From Sphingobium wenxiniae (GTDB taxonomy: Bacteria; Pseudomonadota; Alphaproteobacteria; Sphingomonadales; Sphingomonadaceae), in NCBI RefSeq assembly GCF_007830065.1, contig NZ_VLKK01000001.1, positions 124,001 to 188,000 on the forward strand: a stretch of DNA of 64,000 nt, read 5' to 3'. Of this stretch, positions 28,508 through 38,621 are shown piece by piece. Each line of letters starts with the position of its first letter. Position 1 is the stretch's first letter. Position numbers and translations under genes: made by a program. The notes below the pieces were generated by a model. That model saw only the letters and a list, made by a program, of their open reading frames with translations, did no database searches and was not told where the DNA came from.

Positions 28508-30493
28508 CTATTCCAGTTCCAGAATGATCGCGTCGACCGGCAGGCTTTCGCCCTGCGCCGCCGAGACGCTCTTCACCACGCCCGCCTTTTGCGCGCGCAG
28601 GATGTTCTCCATCTTCATCGCCTCGATCACCGCGAGCGGCTGGCCGATTTCGACCTTGTCGCCTTCCTTCACATTGAGCGCCACCAGCAGGCCCGGCATC
28701 GGGCAGATGAGGAACCTCGAAAGATCGGGCGGAATCTTCTCGATCATGTGCTTCGCATAAGGCGCGGCGTGAGCGGGCAGGATACGCAGCTTGTGGCTCG
28801 CGCCATGCGCGGTCAGCACGAAGCCTGCGCGCACCGGCGCGATCTTGACCGAAAGCGGCTCATCGCCGAACTCCGCCTCGATCAGGCGGTCGCCGGGCGT
28901 ATATTCAAGGCTCATGTCCAGCGGCTCGCCGTCGACGGTCACGTCGTCGCCCATGATGACGACATCATGGATCGCTTCCCCGATCCTGACCTGCCAGCCG
29001 GTCGGAGCCTTCAGCTTCTTGCCGAGCTGGCCATCGATGCGGCGGGCGCGGTCGGCCTGTGCCATGGCGGCGAACGCGCCGATAGCCGCCAGCTTGCGAA
29101 GCAGTTCCTCCGACGCCGGCGCGCCTTCGAAACCTTCCGGATATTCCTGCGCGATGAAGCCGGTCGTGATGTCCCCCGAACGGAAGCGTTCATGCTGCAT
29201 CAGCGCCGACAGGAAATCGATATTATGGCCTGGCCCTTCGATCTCGAAGCGGTCGAGCGCCACGATCTGCTTGTCGATGGCTTCCAGGCGCGTCGGCGCC
29301 CAGGTGATCAGCTTGGCGATCATCGGGTCGTAGAACATGCTGACCTCACCGCCTTCCTGCACGCCGTCGTCGACGCGCACGCCATCGCCGGTTTCGGGCG
29401 GCGTGTAACGGATCAGACGACCCGTCGAGGGCAGGAAGCCACGATAGGGATCTTCGGCATAGACGCGGTTTTCGATGGCCCAGCCGTTGATCTTCACATC
29501 CTCCTGACGGAAGGAGAGTTCCTCGCCATTGGCGACGCGGATCATCTGCTCGACCAGATCGAGGCCGGTGATCTCTTCGGTCACAGGATGCTCGACCTGC
29601 AAACGGGTGTTCATTTCGAGGAAGTAGAAACCGTCCCCCGTCTTGTCCGCGCCCGACACGATCAGTTCCACCGTGCCCGCGCTGAAATAGCCGACCGCGC
29701 GCGCCAGGGCGACGCACTGCTCGCCCATCTTCTTGCGCATTTCGGGGGATACGAAGGGCGAAGGCGCTTCCTCCACCACCTTCTGGTGGCGGCGCTGGAT
29801 CGAGCATTCGCGCTCGTTGAGGTAGACGATATTGCCGTGCTGGTCGCCCAGGATCTGGATTTCGATGTGGCGCGGGCTTTCGATGAACTTCTCGATGAAC
29901 ACGCGATCGTCGCCGAAGCTGTTCAGCCCCTCGCGCTTGGTCGCCTCGAAGCCTTCGCGGACGTCCTGCTCGGAATAGGCAAGGCGCATCCCCTTGCCGC
30001 CGCCGCCGGCCGACGCCTTCATCATCACCGGATAGCCGATCTCGTTGGAGATCTTCACCGCATGTTCGGTATCCTCGATCACGCCGACATAGCCGGGGAC
30101 GACATTGACGCCCGCTTCCATCGCCAGCTTCTTGGATTCGATCTTGTCGCCCATCGCGGCGATGGCGTTGGCGGGCGGGCCGACGAAGATGATGCCCTCT
30201 GCATCCAACGCCTTGCGGAAGCTCTCGCGCTCCGACAGGAAGCCATAGCCGGGGTGAACCGCATCGGCGCCGGTCGCCTTGCACGCCTCGATGATCTTGT
30301 CCGCGAGCAGATAAGACTGGGCGGCGGGCGGCGGGCCGAGGTGCACGGCTTCATCCGCCATCAGCACATGGGGGCTGCGCGCATCGGCATCGGAATAGAC
30401 CGCCACGGTCTTGATGCCCATCTTCTGCGCGGTGCGGATCACGCGGCACGCGATTTCGCCACGGTTCGCGATCAGGATCTTGGTGATTGCCAT
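28508..30493 (-). CDS. pccA: Propionyl-CoA carboxylase, biotin-containing alpha subunit
   Basis: A 661-residue biotin carboxylase/carrier: N-terminal ILIANRGEIACRVIRTA, ATP-grasp domain with ASAGGGGKGMR and HIEIQILGDQHG, and the C-terminal biotinyl domain with VIEAMKMENILRA where the Lys is biotinylated. The long region between them (the BT domain) is typical of acyl-CoA carboxylases that pair with a separate carboxyltransferase. The partner is pccB about 5 kb upstream in the same operon. It makes the carboxybiotin used to convert propionyl-CoA to methylmalonyl-CoA. The 187-base gap before it holds a repeat element. Confidence 0.94.
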   Translation of the reverse strand: MAITKILIANRGEIACRVIRTAQKMGIKTVAVYSDADARSPHVLMADEAVHLGPPPAAQSYLLADKIIEACKATGADAVHPGYGFLSERESFRKALDAEGIIFVGPPANAIAAMGDKIESKKLAMEAGVNVVPGYVGVIEDTEHAVKISNEIGYPVMMKASAGGGGKGMRLAYSEQDVREGFEATKREGLNSFGDDRVFIEKFIESPRHIEIQILGDQHGNIVYLNERECSIQRRHQKVVEEAPSPFVSPEMRKKMGEQCVALARAVGYFSAGTVELIVSGADKTGDGFYFLEMNTRLQVEHPVTEEITGLDLVEQMIRVANGEELSFRQEDVKINGWAIENRVYAEDPYRGFLPSTGRLIRYTPPETGDGVRVDDGVQEGGEVSMFYDPMIAKLITWAPTRLEAIDKQIVALDRFEIEGPGHNIDFLSALMQHERFRSGDITTGFIAQEYPEGFEGAPASEELLRKLAAIGAFAAMAQADRARRIDGQLGKKLKAPTGWQVRIGEAIHDVVIMGDDVTVDGEPLDMSLEYTPGDRLIEAEFGDEPLSVKIAPVRAGFVLTAHGASHKLRILPAHAAPYAKHMIEKIPPDLSRFLICPMPGLLVALNVKEGDKVEIGQPLAVIEAMKMENILRAQKAGVVKSVSAAQGESLPVDAIILELE

Positions 30494-30680: not shown

Positions 30681-31682
30681 TTATTCCGCCGCCTCCAGAT
30701 GCCCGTGCGGCTGCGCCATCATCGGCGTCAGCCCCAGCTTGCCCAGCAGCGTCGCATCCTTGTCGTCCCCGGCATTGGCCGCCGTCAGTAGCTTGTCGCC
30801 CGTGAAGATGCTGTTCGCGCCCGCCATGAAGCAGAGCGCCTGACAGGCTTCGCTCATGCTCTCGCGGCCCGCGCTCAGGCGCACCATGGACTGCGGCATG
30901 ACGATCCGCGCCACGGCCACGGTGCGGACGAACTCGACCTCATCGATCTTCGCGAGCGGCGTGTCCTTGAGCATATCGCCCAGCACCGTGCCAGCGACCG
31001 GCACCAGCGCGTTGATCGGCACGCTTTCCGGATGCGGCATGGTGGCAAGCGCGTGGAGGAAACCGATGCGGTCGCTCCGCGTCTCGCCCATGCCCACGAT
31101 GCCGCCGCAACACACGTTGATGCCCGCCGAACGCACATTTTCCAGCGTCTCGATCCGGTCCTCGAAGGTCCGGGTGGTGATGACGTTGGCGTAGTTTTCC
31201 GGCGAGGTATCGATATTGTGGTTATAATAATCGAGGCCCGCATCCGCGAGTTGCCTGGCCTGCCCCTCGCTCAACATGCCGAGCGTCATGCAGGTTTCCA
31301 TGCCCATCGCACGGACGCCCTTCACCATCTCGACCAGCTTGGGCATGTCCCGTTCCTTGGGATTGCGCCATGCCGCGCCCATGCAGAAACGGCCCGACCC
31401 ATGATCCTTGGCCTGCGCCGCCGCCTGGAGCACAGCCTGCACGTCCATCAGCTTGGTGGCCTTGAGGCCGCTTTCCGCTTCGGTCGACTGGCTGCAATAG
31501 CCGCAGTCTTCGGGGCAACCGCCGGTCTTGATCGACAACAGGGTCGAAAGCTGCACCTCGTTGCGCGGGAAGTTCGCGCGGTGGATCGACTGCGCCTCGA
31601 ACATCAGGTCGTTGAAGGGCAGGTCGAACAGCGCGGCGATTTCGTCGCGCGTCCAGTCGGTGCGGGGCGTCATCTGGTTCAA
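30681..31682 (-). CDS. bioB: Biotin synthase
   Basis: Radical SAM enzyme inserting sulfur into dethiobiotin to give biotin. The 4Fe-4S cluster motif is CPEDCGYC (C56, C60, C63); further blocks include [17 protein letters not shown] and [13 protein letters not shown]. The TTG at 31682 is chosen: GGAGGA ends six bases before it and it overlaps the mutase stop as TTGA. The ATG three codons later (31673) is too far from that ribosome site. It sits between the mutase and pccA in the propionate operon, presumably to supply biotin to the carboxylase; other bio genes are not in the window. Confidence 0.95.
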
Positions 31683-33832
31683 GCGGCTTCCTCCAGCCCC
31701 GCCGGGGGCATGTTGTGGCCGAGAAGGCGCAGCACATCGGCGGCGCATTCCACGACGTTGGAGCCTGGGCCATAAATCCCCTGCACGCCCGCGTCACGGA
31801 GATAGTCATAATCCTGCGGCGGAATGACCCCGCCCGCGATCACCTTGATGTCGTTGCGCCCGGCTTCGCGAAGCTGGCGGATGAGGTCGGGGATCAGCGT
31901 CTTGTGCCCGGCGGCGAGCGACGATGCGCCGACCACGTCCACGCCGCTATCCAGCGCCAGCACGACGGTTTCCTCCGGCGTCTGGAACAATGGTCCCGAC
32001 ACGACGTCGAAACCCATGTCCCCGAAGGCGGAAGCGATGATATTGGCGCCCCGGTCGTGGCCGTCCTGCCCCATCTTGGCGATAAGGATCTTCGGCTTGC
32101 GACCAAGGCGCCGCTCGACGGCCTGCACACCGTCAAGAACCTGTTTCCAGCGGCTGTCGTCCTTGTAAGGCGCGGCATAGACGCCCTTCACCGGCGTCGG
32201 CACGGTGCCGTAGCGGTCGAATCTCTCCTCCATCGCGGAGCTGATTTCACCCAGCGTCGCGCGGGCGCGTGCCGCCTCCACCGCCAGCGCGAGCAGGTTG
32301 TTCTCGATGCTCGCCGGGCTGGCCGCGCCCTTACGAAGGGCGTCCAGAGCCGCCTGACACTTCGCCTCGTCGCGCTCCGCCTTCATCTTGTTGATGCGGG
32401 CGATCTGCGCTTCGCGGACCTTGGTGTTGTCGACCTCCAGCGTTTCAAGCAGGTCTTCATTGGCAAGGCGATATTTGTTGACGCCGACGATCACGTCCTC
32501 GCCCCGGTCCACGCGGGCCTGACGGGCGGCGGCGGCTTCCTCGATCATCGCCTTGGGCCAGCCGGCCGCGACCGCCTTGGCCATGCCGCCTTCGCTCTGG
32601 ACGCGGTCGATGATCTCCTGCGCGCGGTCGACCAGTTCCTGCGTCAGCGCTTCGACATAATAGCTGCCACCCAACGGATCGACGACATTGCACATGCCCG
32701 TCTCTTCCTGGATGATGATCTGCGTATTACGGGCGATGCGCGCCGAAAAATCCGTCGGCAGCGCGATGGCTTCGTCCAGCGCGTTGGTGTGCAGCGACTG
32801 GGTGCCGCCCAGCATCGCGGCCATCGCCTCGATGGTGGTGCGCATGACGTTGTTATAGGGGTCCTGCTCGGTCAGCGACACGCCGCTGGTCTGGCAGTGG
32901 GTGCGCAGCATCTTGGAGCGCTCGTCCTGCGCGCCCAGCTTCGTCATGGCGCGGTGCCACAGGACGCGTGCGGCGCGCAGCTTCGCCACTTCCATGAAGA
33001 AGTTCATGCCGATGGCGAAGAAGAAGCTCAGCCGTCCCGCGAACTTGTCGATGTCGAGGCCCGACGCCACGCCATATTTCACATATTCCATGCCGTCCGC
33101 GATGGTGAAGGCCAGTTCCTGCACCTGCGTCGCACCGGCTTCCTGCATGTGATAGCCGGAGATGGAGATGCTGTTGAATTTCGGCATCTCGCGGCTGGTA
33201 TAGCCGAAAATATCGGAGATGATCCGCATCGAGGGTTCGGGCGGGTAGATATAGGTGTTGCGGACCATGAACTCTTTCAGAATGTCGTTCTGAATGGTCC
33301 CGTCGAGCAGCTTGCGGTCGACGCCCTGCTCCTCGCCCGCCACGATGAAGAAGGAGAGGATCGGGATGACCGCACCGTTCATGGTCATGGAGACCGACAT
33401 CTGGTCGAGCGGAATGCCGTCGAACAGGATCTTCATGTCCTCGACGCTGTCGATCGCCACGCCCGCCTTACCCACGTCGCCCACGACGCGCGGATGGTCG
33501 CTGTCATATCCCCGATGGGTGGCAAGGTCGAAGGCGACCGAAAGCCCCTTCTGCCCCGCCGCCAGGTTGCGGCGATAGAAGGCGTTGGATTCCTCGGCGG
33601 TCGAAAAGCCCGCATATTGGCGGATGGTCCACGGACGCCCCGCATACATGGATGCCTTCACGCCGCGGGTGAAGGGCGCAAAGCCGGGAAAGCCCGGATC
33701 GACCTGCACATCCTGCGCCGTGTAAAGCGGCTTGACGTCGATCCCTTCCGGCGTGTGCCAGGTAAGGTCCTTGCCCTTCACTTCCTTGGTCGCGGCGGCG
33801 GCCCATTGATCCAGCGTCGGCTTGTCGGTCAC
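31679..33832 (-). CDS. Methylmalonyl-CoA mutase
   Basis: A 717-residue adenosylcobalamin enzyme that isomerises (R)-methylmalonyl-CoA to succinyl-CoA. The N-terminal TIM-barrel holds the substrate site ([20 protein letters not shown] and the [10 protein letters not shown] segment); the C-terminal B12 domain has the base-off motif [14 protein letters not shown]. Single-chain, as in E. coli ScpA. GTG 33832 has GGAG six bases upstream and gives the family N-terminus; the ATG at 33874 would add 14 unrelated residues. It requires cobalamin; no B12 synthesis genes or cobalamin riboswitch are seen here. Confidence 0.95.
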
Positions 33833-33879
33833 TTCAATCTCCGTTCGTCCCGAGTGCAGTCGAGAGACGTTCATTCCGT

Positions 33880-34317
33880 TCAGTGCGCCTCTTTGGGCGT
33901 TTCCATGATTTCGGTCAGGACACCGTTCATGTCCTTGGGATGGACGAAGAAGATCAGCGTGCCATGCGCGCCGATGCGGGGTTCACCCAGCACCTTCTTG
34001 CCCAGACCTTCAAACCATGCCTTCGCCTCATGGATATCGGGCACTTCGTAGCACATATGATGCTGTCCGCCCGCCGGGTTCTTGGCGATGAAGCCGTGAA
34101 TGGGGCTGTTTTCGCCCAGCGGTTCGATCAGCTCGATCTGTGTGCCATTGGTGCCATTTTCGCCCGGCGTGTCAACGAAGCAGACCTTCACGCCCTGCGA
34201 AGGCATATCGAAAGATTCGTGGATCTTCGTCGCGCCCATCACGTCGCGATAATAAACGATGCTGGCCTCCAGCGAGGGGGTCGCAATGCCGATATGGTTA
34301 AGCCGTCCGAGTTTCAT
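33880..34317 (-). CDS. mce: Methylmalonyl-CoA epimerase
   Basis: A 145-residue vicinal-oxygen-chelate protein: [12 protein letters not shown] start with the metal-binding His, central [12 protein letters not shown], and [12 protein letters not shown] with the second His pair. It converts (S)- to (R)-methylmalonyl-CoA between the carboxylase and the mutase. The ATG at 34317 overlaps the stop of the upstream thiolase gene (ATGA), indicating coupled translation; the longer frame to 34365 is not needed. Confidence 0.94.
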
Positions 34318-35504
34318 GCCACATTCTCGATGACCATGGCGATCCCCTGACCGCCGCCAATGCACATGGTGATAAGGCCATATTTACCGCCCGTGCGCTT
34401 GAGTTCATAGGCCGTCTTAACCGTCAGGATCGCGCCGGTCGCGCCGACCGGATGACCCAGCGCGATGCCGCTGCCATTGGGATTGACCTTTTCCGGATCG
34501 AAGCCCAGTTCCTTGGCGACGGCGCAGGCCTGCGCGGCAAAAGCCTCATTGGCCTCGATCACGTCGATCTGATCAAGCGTCACACCAGCCCGCTCCAGAG
34601 CGATGGGGACCGCCTTGATCGGCCCGACGCCCATGATCCGCGGATCGACGCCCGCATGGCCCCATCCCAGGATGCGCGCAAGCGGCTTCAAGCCCTTTTC
34701 CGCCACCGCCTTACCGCTTGCCACCACGACGGCGCCCGCGCCATCGTTGATGCCGGATGCGTTGCCGGGTGTCACGGTGCCGCCCTCCTTCCGGAAGGCA
34801 GGCTTGAGCTTCGCCATCTCCTCCAGGCTGGCGTCGGCGCGGACATGCTCGTCCGTATCGAAAGTGACGACGCCCTTGCGGCTCTTCACTTCCACCGGCA
34901 CGATCTGTTCCTTGAAGCGGCCTTCCACAATGGCTCTTGCGGCACGGCTATGCCCTTCGACCGCAAGCGCATCCTGTGCGGCGCGGGAAACCTGATATTT
35001 CTCAGCCACATTCTCGGCGGTGATGCCCATGTGGAAATGCTCGAACGGGTCCGAAAGCACCTCCAGCATGGCGTCGATCATCTTGATGTCGCCCATCTTG
35101 GTGCCGAAGCGGGCGGCTTTCACCACATGCGGGGAATTGCTCATGCTTTCCGTGCCGCCTGCCAGGGCGATATCGGCCTCGCCCAGCTTCAGCGTCTGCG
35201 CGGCGGAAATGATCGCCTGCAACCCCGATCCGCACAAACGATTGAGCGTCAGCGCGGGCGCTTCAACGGGAATACCGGCGTTCACGCCGATGACGCGCGC
35301 GATATAGGCATCGCGCGGGCCGCTCTGGATGACCTGTCCTATAACGACGTGCTGTACATCGGCGGGCGCGACGGCCGCCCGTTCCATGGCGGCGACCGCA
35401 ACGATGCGGCCCAGCTCGTCGGGCTGTACATCCTTGAGCGCCCCTCCGAAATCACCGATCGCGGTGCGCGCCGCGCCGACAATGAAAATGTCCCGATCGT
35501 CCAT
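34314..35504 (-). CDS. Acetyl-CoA acyltransferase / beta-ketothiolase (BktB-like)
   Basis: A 396-residue thiolase with catalytic Cys in LNRLCGSGLQAI, GHPVGATGAI and C-terminal CIGGGQG. Being second in an operon for propionyl-CoA breakdown, it probably cleaves 3-ketovaleryl-CoA to acetyl-CoA and propionyl-CoA, feeding the carboxylase, or makes it in reverse. This is inferred from position; the sequence alone shows only the thiolase family. ATG 35504 has AGG 8 bases upstream, better than the TTG at 35510. Confidence 0.92.
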   Translation of the reverse strand: MDDRDIFIVGAARTAIGDFGGALKDVQPDELGRIVAVAAMERAAVAPADVQHVVIGQVIQSGPRDAYIARVIGVNAGIPVEAPALTLNRLCGSGLQAIISAAQTLKLGEADIALAGGTESMSNSPHVVKAARFGTKMGDIKMIDAMLEVLSDPFEHFHMGITAENVAEKYQVSRAAQDALAVEGHSRAARAIVEGRFKEQIVPVEVKSRKGVVTFDTDEHVRADASLEEMAKLKPAFRKEGGTVTPGNASGINDGAGAVVVASGKAVAEKGLKPLARILGWGHAGVDPRIMGVGPIKAVPIALERAGVTLDQIDVIEANEAFAAQACAVAKELGFDPEKVNPNGSGIALGHPVGATGAILTVKTAYELKRTGGKYGLITMCIGGGQGIAMVIENVA

Positions 35505-35549
35505 GACCAATACCTTTTTGCTTTAACGATCCGTCACCTGACCGATATG

Positions 35550-37082: not shown

Positions 37083-37146
37083 AATAAGGCATCTCTCCAG
37101 TCGGTACGGACGGGTATGCCTGCCCCTTTCCAGCCTTTGGCGCTTT

Positions 37147-37191
37147 TTCGCAAATGTAAATTTGCTAATTTGCAAATCACGACTTTGCAAA
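37147..37191. promoter_or_regulatory. Cluster of TTTGCAAA sites in the pccB/regulator divergent region
   Basis: Two exact TTTGCAAA copies (37169-37176, 37184-37191) and two degenerate ones (TTTGCTAA 37161-37168; TTCGCAAA 37147-37154). TTTGCAAA is the core of sites bound by RamB/PrpR/MccR-type regulators in actinobacteria and proteobacteria. The divergent gene encodes a member of that family. The site at 37184-37191 ends 14 bases before the regulator start, so autoregulation is likely. Confidence 0.7.
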
Positions 37192-37205
37192 TTATGCGGA
37201 GCAGC

Positions 37206-38621
37206 ATGGCACGCGGCAATCGCATCTTCGCCGGTCAGAGGCTCCGTCAGCTTCGGATCGATCATCGCATGGACCAGGCCGCCATGGCGCAGGCGCTTGG
37301 GATTTCCGTATCCTATCTTAGCCAGTTGGAGAATGACGACCGGCCGCTCACCGCCAAGGTGAAGGCAGCACTCGCCAGCGCCTTCCCGACCGACTGGGCG
37401 AGTTTCGACAGCCGGGAGGAGGAGCAGCTTCTGGGCGCGTTCACCTTCGCCCTGGCGCACCCCGAATTGCCGGGCGCATTGCTGGAGCCGGAGCGGATCG
37501 AGAAGCTTCATCTCCAATTCCCCGAATTCGCAGCCCGCTATGTCGATCTCTACAACGCCCATATGCGCGCCAATGAGCGGATCAACATGATCGAGGAGGC
37601 CATCGCCAACGATCATGCCGTGCAAGCCCGCCTGCCATGGGAAGCGGCGCGCGACTGGTTCCATGAGGCGGGCAATTACGTCCATCCGCTCGATTGCCTG
37701 GCGGAGGATATGGCCGCCAGCTTCACCGCGGGGCAGGCGCTGGACGAAGGGATGCTGGTGGAAGCGCTGGCGCGGCGGCACGGTATCGAAACGCTGATCG
37801 CCGACACGCCGGACTCATCGCTTCGCACCTATAGCGCGAACGACAGGCGGCTGTTCGTCAACGCCGCCCTGCCCACCGAAAGCCGCAAGTTCATGTTGGG
37901 CCATCAGTTGATGATCCTGGAGGGGCAGACGCTGATCGCGGACATAGTGGCGAAGGCCGCCCTGTCCGTGGCGGGCGCGGACCGGCTGCTGGCCGTCGGC
38001 CTGGGCAATTATGCGGCGGGCGCATTGCTGATGCCCTATGCTCCGTTCCGGGAGGCGGCGCGGGAAAGCCGGCACGATATCGACAAGCTGGCGCGGCGCT
38101 TCGGCGTCAGTTTCGAACAGGCATGCCATCGCCTCTCGACGCTGCAAAGGCCGGGGCTGCGCGGCATTCCCTTCTTTTTCTGCCGGGTCGACATGGCGGG
38201 GAATATCACGAAGCGCCACAGCGCCACCCGGCTGCAATTCGCGCGCTTCGGCGGGGCCTGCCCGCTATGGAACGTGCATGAGGCAGTCGCCATTCCAGAC
38301 CGCATCAACGTGCAGCTTGGCGAAACGCCGGACGGGGTGCGCTATGTGTCCATGGCCAAGGGGCTGGTGAAGCCGTCCGGCAGCTACGCCCGAACGCCGC
38401 GCCGCTATGCCGTGGTGCTGGGATGCGAAGTCGCCCATGCGGCGAACTTCGTCTATGCGGACGGCCTGCGGCTGGAGGACGAGGGCGCGGCGACGCCCAT
38501 CGGCATCACCTGCCGCCTCTGCCCGCGCCAAAGCTGCGACCAGCGCGCGTTCCCGCCCGCCGACCGGCCGATCCATGTCGATCCCGACAACCGGCAGATC
38601 GTGCCCTACTGGATCGGTTGA
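37206..38621 (+). CDS. Short-chain acyl-CoA responsive regulator (RamB/PrpR/MccR family)
   Basis: A 471-residue regulator: N-terminal XRE helix-turn-helix ([24 protein letters not shown] region, residues 10-35), an ImmA/IrrE-like middle domain with [13 protein letters not shown], and a C-terminal DUF2083-type domain with the cysteine motif [16 protein letters not shown]. Relatives control propionate, glyoxylate or methylcitrate genes and are reported to sense acyl-CoA. ATG 37206 has GGAG at 37198-37201; ATG 37194 is possible. Divergent from pccB with TTTGCAAA sites between, so it very likely controls the propionate operon. Confidence 0.92.

Follow-up and report, generated by a model that had tools for sequence, protein, structure and literature searches.

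A conserved box array beside pccB is a predicted operator for a PccR-like regulator in Sphingobium wenxiniae and related sphingomonads

Introduction

In Sphingobium wenxiniae, a gap of 123 bp separates pccB from the divergent gene of an ScfR-family regulator, and four TTTGCAAA-like boxes lie within this gap. This arrangement raises the question of whether the boxes form an operator for the adjacent regulator and, if so, how the regulator would control pccB. We analyzed the locus in its window, i.e., the whole 64-kb stretch of DNA under study, and in related genomes.

The first-pass annotation had predicted that this operator mediates direct control of a methylmalonyl-CoA pathway operon, and had contrasted it with better known regulators of the methylcitrate cycle or glyoxylate shunt. 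Direct control is upheld by inference, given that an ScfR gene adjoins the array and that the array is conserved with it. As a novelty, the prediction does not stand: direct ScfR control of propionyl-CoA carboxylase and the methylmalonyl-CoA pathway is described for PccR of Rhodobacter sphaeroides (PMC12632250, PMC10370305, PMC6765138), and the contrast with methylcitrate and glyoxylate regulators is therefore not new. A sphingomonad locus has also been named pccR/pcc already, with its regulator termed hypothetical (PMC9195938). What is new here is the exact geometry of the boxes, the conservation of this geometry, and leads to sucC and to an ETF gene. Our search of the literature, which covered mainly open-access papers, found none on this operator in sphingomonads. 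Since the degradation of testosterone and ibuprofen by sphingomonads feeds the propionyl-CoA pathway (PMC6895838, PMC9195938), a defined operator would offer a direct handle on the switching of propionyl-CoA flux.

Genes surrounding the array

Coordinates are collected in Table 1. No NCBIfam model scored above its cut-off against pccB, and we infer its specificity for propionyl-CoA from the carboxyl transferase domain and the neighboring genes. Gene order and strand likewise suggest that pccB-thiolase-epimerase-mutase-bioB-pccA is one operon. On the other side of the gap, the listed ORF for a 2OG-Fe dioxygenase (PF10014, 38423-39391, plus strand) overlaps pccR at its 3' end, although translation of this ORF probably begins further downstream.

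Table 1. Genes and sequence elements of the pccB-pccR locus, in window coordinates
Feature	Position	Strand	Remarks
pccA, biotin carboxylase/carrier subunit	28508..30493	-	PCC_BT domain
bioB, biotin synthase	30681..31748	-	TIGR00433 above cut-off; start codon uncertain
Methylmalonyl-CoA mutase	31679..33874	-	NF006944 above cut-off
Methylmalonyl-CoA epimerase	33880..34365	-	TIGR03081 above cut-off; start codon uncertain
Thiolase, BktB-like	34314..35510	-	NF006552 above cut-off; start codon uncertain
pccB, carboxyl transferase subunit, 510 aa	35550..37082	-	PF01039 above cut-off
Box A, TTCGCAAA	37147..37154	.	Outside close relatives, right half alone conserved
TGTAAA (family consensus TGTGAA)	37155..37160	-	Minus strand TTTACA/TTCACA; putative -35-like hexamer for pccB
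Box B, TTTGCTAA (family TTGCRAA)	37161..37168	.	Mismatch search and column conservation
Box C, TTTGCAAA	37169..37176	.	Abuts box B, 8-bp tandem pair
Box D, TTTGCAAA	37184..37191	.	Most conserved among the boxes
Sigma-70-like match TTGCCG-17-CATAAT, 9/12	37191..37219	-	Towards pccB; second hexamer touches box D
pccR, ScfR-family regulator, 471 aa	37206..38621	+	HTH, IrrE-like and ScfRs C-terminal domains

The box array

The first-pass annotation had placed a four-site operator at 37147-37191, with two perfect and two degenerate sites in 45 bases. Both the span and the composition proved accurate. The boxes start at 37147, 37161, 37169 and 37184, i.e., 14, 8 and 15 bp apart; the latter two are exact copies of TTTGCAAA, while those at 37147 (TTCGCAAA) and 37161 (TTTGCTAA) are copies with one mismatch.

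Single boxes are not enriched across the window, which has 7 at up to one mismatch versus 12.9 expected. The exact copies at 37169 and 37184 are the two that occur in the 64 kb, and at least two were also found in 7 of 100 shuffles. The clustering of the boxes is far beyond chance: four lie within 45 bp, the maximum in 150 first-order Markov simulated windows was two per 45 bp, and when the 123-bp gap was shuffled 20,000 times by mononucleotide, a single shuffle had three boxes and none had four.

Conservation of the array

A divergent pccB accompanies the regulator gene in 79 of 80 named loci (the best 80 of 584). Leaving the window aside, the same holds for 28 of the 29 best family loci, some of them from genomes that also belong to the named set. 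At a spacing of 8/15, boxes B, C and D fit all 79 of the named loci (from the best 80 of 584) with 1-6 mismatches per 24 positions, and a control of 50 shuffles per locus never gave fewer than 7. Among the 48 loci with less than 75% protein identity, 37 fit this spacing at up to 4 mismatches, compared with 11 for the next best spacing. In these 48 loci, the column consensus is TTGCRAA for box B, TTGCRAA for box C and TTTGCAAA for box D, and CAA and TGTGAA (the latter at offsets 8-13) are conserved ahead of box B. Many box columns reach 1.5-2 bits at this level of protein identity, and most flanking columns are unconserved.

Box A behaves differently. A near-complete copy, with one mismatch, is present in 22 of the 31 loci with at least 75% identity; a copy with none or one is found in 2 of the 48 others, among which the left half of the box is not conserved. 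Because only the right half persists beyond close relatives, the family-wide operator consists of three full boxes, which are nearly invariant across sphingomonads, and a half, rather than four. A four-site description thus fits the operator at genus level and fails family-wide, where the half box and a -35-like element run into each other. Two of the 30 family loci (L033 and L034) have no box at up to one mismatch.

We also searched 99 family genomes for the operator pattern, allowing up to 2 mismatches. It occurs in 25 of them, at 28 places: 25 places precede pccR by no more than about 200 bp, and 3 are elsewhere; a reversed control gave 0. A PccR orthologue, defined as a full-length or split match with E of 1e-119 or better, is present in 33 of the 99 genomes, and these 33 include every genome with the pattern. 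The pattern is absent at this threshold from the other 8 of these 33, and from all 66 family genomes that have no PccR.

Two further observations concern the sequence around the array. A flanking T at window position 37129, 18 bases before box A, is kept in 46 of the 48 divergent loci and is perhaps near the start of the pccB transcript. In L013, L042, L054, L060 and others, the stretch between the operator and pccR is lengthened while the array is intact, and in some of these the added length has, by eye, inverted-repeat-like sequence.

Identity of the regulator

The regulator has three domains, all above cut-off: PF09856 (223 bits), PF06114 (75 bits) and PF01381 (38 bits). The first of these marks it as an ScfR, the protein group to which both RamB and PrpR belong, which agrees with the RamB/PrpR-type protein proposed in the first-pass annotation. 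A narrower assignment to RamB is not indicated, as the score against the RamB equivalog model NF038139 was 402.5 bits, and the curated cut-off is 700. The closest named relatives, at 89-93% identity, are mostly from Sphingobium, along with some MAGs and one Novosphingobium sp. (among the best 80 of 584).

The protein aligns with PrpR of Mycobacterium tuberculosis (MtPrpR) at 2e-80. In MtPrpR, residue 155 sets ligand selectivity, a position occupied by Trp in R. sphaeroides PccR, and the ligands of the [4Fe4S] cluster are C363 and C447-X2-C-X4-C455 (PMC6765138). W145 of our regulator aligns with position 155 (F in 6cyy, H in 6cyj), and its C352 and C436-X2-C439-X4-C444 match the cluster ligands; W145 and the four cysteines are invariant across 21 sphingomonad sequences. 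In a tree of 31 sequences, from which R. sphaeroides PccR was left out, the sphingomonad regulators form a clade (100/98) with 4 of the 5 pccB-adjacent ScfRs of other alphaproteobacteria, the fifth (L121) having no clear placement. The other three ScfRs of the S. wenxiniae genome are outside this clade. The ScfR domains, the cysteines, the Trp position, clade membership and the association with pccB all point to a PccR-like regulator, and the array would then be a real, conserved operator for a known type of regulator, by which it is predicted to be bound.

Promoter placement and mode of control

The TGTGAA element reads TTCACA on the minus strand (TTTACA in the window), which matches TTGACA at 5 of 6 positions, and it lies directly downstream of box B in the direction of pccB. 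On the basis of its conservation, this element may be the -35 of pccB. If TTCACA has this role, the center of box B is near -41, which would be a position typical of an activator.

We consider it probable that the array is the PccR operator, and that propionyl-CoA-bound PccR activates the pccB operon from boxes B, C and D. In this model, a PccR oligomer, probably a dimer or tetramer, would bind these three boxes just upstream of the -35-like element, and the presence of propionyl-CoA in its CoA pocket would lead to activation of the genes from pccB to pccA. As PccR occupancy would cover the start region of pccR, this gene is probably autoregulated. In line with this model, testosterone, a source of propionyl-CoA, strongly induces the corresponding gene cluster in Novosphingobium tardaugens, a species reported to have no methylcitrate cycle (PMC6895838). 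An observation against the model is that in Paracoccus denitrificans, deletion of an ScfR that groups with PccR left growth and the ccr and icl reporters unchanged under the conditions tested (PMC10370305).

The main alternative is that ligand-free PccR represses pccB from the boxes and is released by propionyl-CoA. A sigma-70 promoter scan of the gap did not list the -35-like element between boxes A and B, and gave one match, at 37219-37191 and directed towards pccB. If this match is the real pccB promoter, the array is downstream of the promoter, and repression becomes more likely. Box A is also downstream of the alternative -35-like element, and RamB of M. tuberculosis is reported as a likely repressor (PMC6765138). 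However, the match agrees at just 9 of 12 positions, 0.2 such matches are expected by chance in shuffles, and its second hexamer is well conserved only in the parts shared with box D and in the TA that follows. We therefore regard repression as unlikely.

We also considered a promoter for pccR itself, formed by box C as the -35 and a TA-rich -10 following box D, but do not claim it, as box D is too near the pccR start in some loci. In 1 of 79 named loci (from the best 80 of 584), no more than 5 bp separate the end of box D from the aligned pccR start codon, and in L020 and L021 the two overlap.

Other ScfR proteins of the genome

The genome has four ScfR genes, and motifs overlap between members of this group (PMC6765138), so the array might in principle serve an ScfR other than PccR, e.g., a methylcitrate-type paralogue or a RamB-like one. 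The methylcitrate-type paralogue (C3, L005:577-1983) has Phe at the selectivity position, as read by eye, and lies in divergent orientation to prpD and a 2-methylcitrate synthase-like gene (L262:3-2298); the best NCBIfam scores of these two genes are below the full-length cut-offs, and the second gene is incomplete. Because of this arrangement, both propionate routes appear to be present in the genome, each beside its own ScfR. The RamB-like paralogue (C4) adjoins a gene that, judged from 145 residues, is isocitrate lyase-like. For the remaining paralogue (C13), neither such neighboring genes nor boxes were found within the 3.5 kb examined.

Several observations make it very improbable that one of these paralogues is the cognate protein. 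The boxes upstream of the RamB-like paralogue itself are TTTGTAAA-like, rather than TTTGCAAA. The C3 paralogue is present in just 5 of 61 genomes of the genus, assigned by score band, while the pccB array extends well beyond the genus and was found in no family genome lacking PccR (0 of 66). Finally, we give practically no credence to the idea that the boxes are AT-rich repeats without function, due to chance or shared descent: the gap is AT-rich for its region (GC 0.47), but shuffles fail to yield the array, and in loci with less than 75% protein identity many box columns are conserved where most flanking columns are not.

Possible additional targets

The first-pass annotation had proposed to search the genome for the motif elsewhere. 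Exact TTTGCAAA sites number 32, versus 5 for a reversed-pattern control. A broad regulon made up of single sites was rejected, as a neighboring box within 40 bp accompanies only 4 of the 30 sites outside the array, distributed over 3 loci. These three loci are sucC, an OYE-family oxidoreductase gene and a place inside an ORF. Before the oxidoreductase gene, the arrangement is TTTGCAAA-N13-TTTGCGAA (C4, L154:1518-1546). A degenerate three-box pattern matched the pccB array with 0 mismatches and one other place, near sucC, with 3, and its reversed control matched 0.

The sucC array (C29, L162:1506-1534) reads TTTGCAAT-TTTGCAAA-N5-TTTGCAAA and is 76 bp before sucC. It is present at up to 2 mismatches per 24 positions in 56 of 61 genomes of the genus, the other 5 having 8 or more, with the consensus TTTGCAAT-TTTGCAAA-N5-TTTGCRAA and a spacing of 8/13 versus 8/15 at pccB. 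Conservation in the 56 genomes is close to 2 bits for most columns of the boxes. It stays below 0.5 bit in the upstream flank until 3 bases short of the array, and is mixed on the downstream side. We surveyed 30 sucC loci in the family, of which 28 are outside the genus and one of these is truncated at a contig end. At least two boxes (up to one mismatch) were found in 1 of the 27 readable loci outside the genus (G075), and the sucC array was accordingly rejected as a family-wide trait.

Within the genus, PccR is present in 58 of 61 genomes, by a score band that we assigned. The sucC array is found in 55 of the 58 genomes with PccR and in 1 of the 3 without (G355, which is 93% complete), counts that are uncorrected for kinship, and another genome without PccR (G375) still keeps a tandem box pair before sucC. 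The presence of PccR and that of the sucC array do not track each other tightly. PccR is nonetheless favored as the protein that would bind the sucC array, because the boxes have the TTTGCAAA spelling and the C3 paralogue is rare (5 of 61 genomes). The array thus suggests sucC, encoding succinyl-CoA synthetase, as a further predicted target of PccR. A narrow search of open-access papers found no literature on a link between PccR and sucC.

The operator also recurs outside the pccB locus in other genomes. In another sphingomonad genome (G028), an ETF subunit gene is preceded by the pccB module, including TTCACATTTGCA and GCTTGGAAG, and the gene of a TonB-dependent receptor by a similar module (copies at L229:1390-1419 and L228:1488-1517). 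The third off-locus match, in G095 (L230), has no clear target gene in its neighborhood. Whether PccR regulates the C3-to-succinate route more widely than published, with the sucC, ETF and TonB copies as instances of a portable cassette, is in our judgment evenly balanced. If it does, the operator cassette would recruit new genes to propionyl-CoA control, and through the sucC array an enzyme of the TCA cycle would be linked to propionyl-CoA status in a single genus.

Comparison with known systems

The closest parallel is PccR of Rhodobacter (Cereibacter) sphaeroides (Carter & Alber 2015), which is also an ScfR, has Trp at the selectivity position, and controls both pccB and the methylmalonyl-CoA pathway. 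The motif of that protein is reportedly TTTGCAAA-N4-TTTGCAAA. Our array departs from such an N4 arrangement of two boxes, as its boxes start 14, 8 and 15 bp apart. We interpret this departure as a variant operator, rather than failed orthology, because spacing varies between lineages. This variation is apparent from 20 ScfR loci of other alphaproteobacterial families, of which 5 have pccB upstream. Two of these (L123 and L124, with Trp) have tandem 8-bp box pairs among the boxes upstream of pccB, with about 1.5 kb from pccB to the regulator. Two others have Tyr: L121, with TTGCGAA-N4-TTTGCAAA between divergent genes, and L122, with a tandem box pair at the start of the regulator. The fifth (L128, with Phe) has one weak box.

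Of the ScfR proteins with other roles, M. tuberculosis PrpR shares the domain family, TTTGCAAA boxes between divergent genes and the [4Fe4S] cysteines. It differs in having two boxes 1 bp apart, in controlling the methylcitrate cycle and in having Phe at 155 (PMC6765138). RamB class 2 of Paracoccus denitrificans is an ScfR activator, with two boxes beside its own gene and CoA-ester ligands, but it controls the glyoxylate cycle and its boxes are separated by an 18-bp spacer (PMC10370305). The pcc locus of Rhizorhabdus wittichii MPO218 has a similar gene set and a hypothetical pccR, and the available text on this locus describes no operator (PMC9195938). The three-box geometry at the S. wenxiniae locus differs from the ScfR spacings cited here, and would thus provide a test of how ScfR proteins read the spacing of their boxes.
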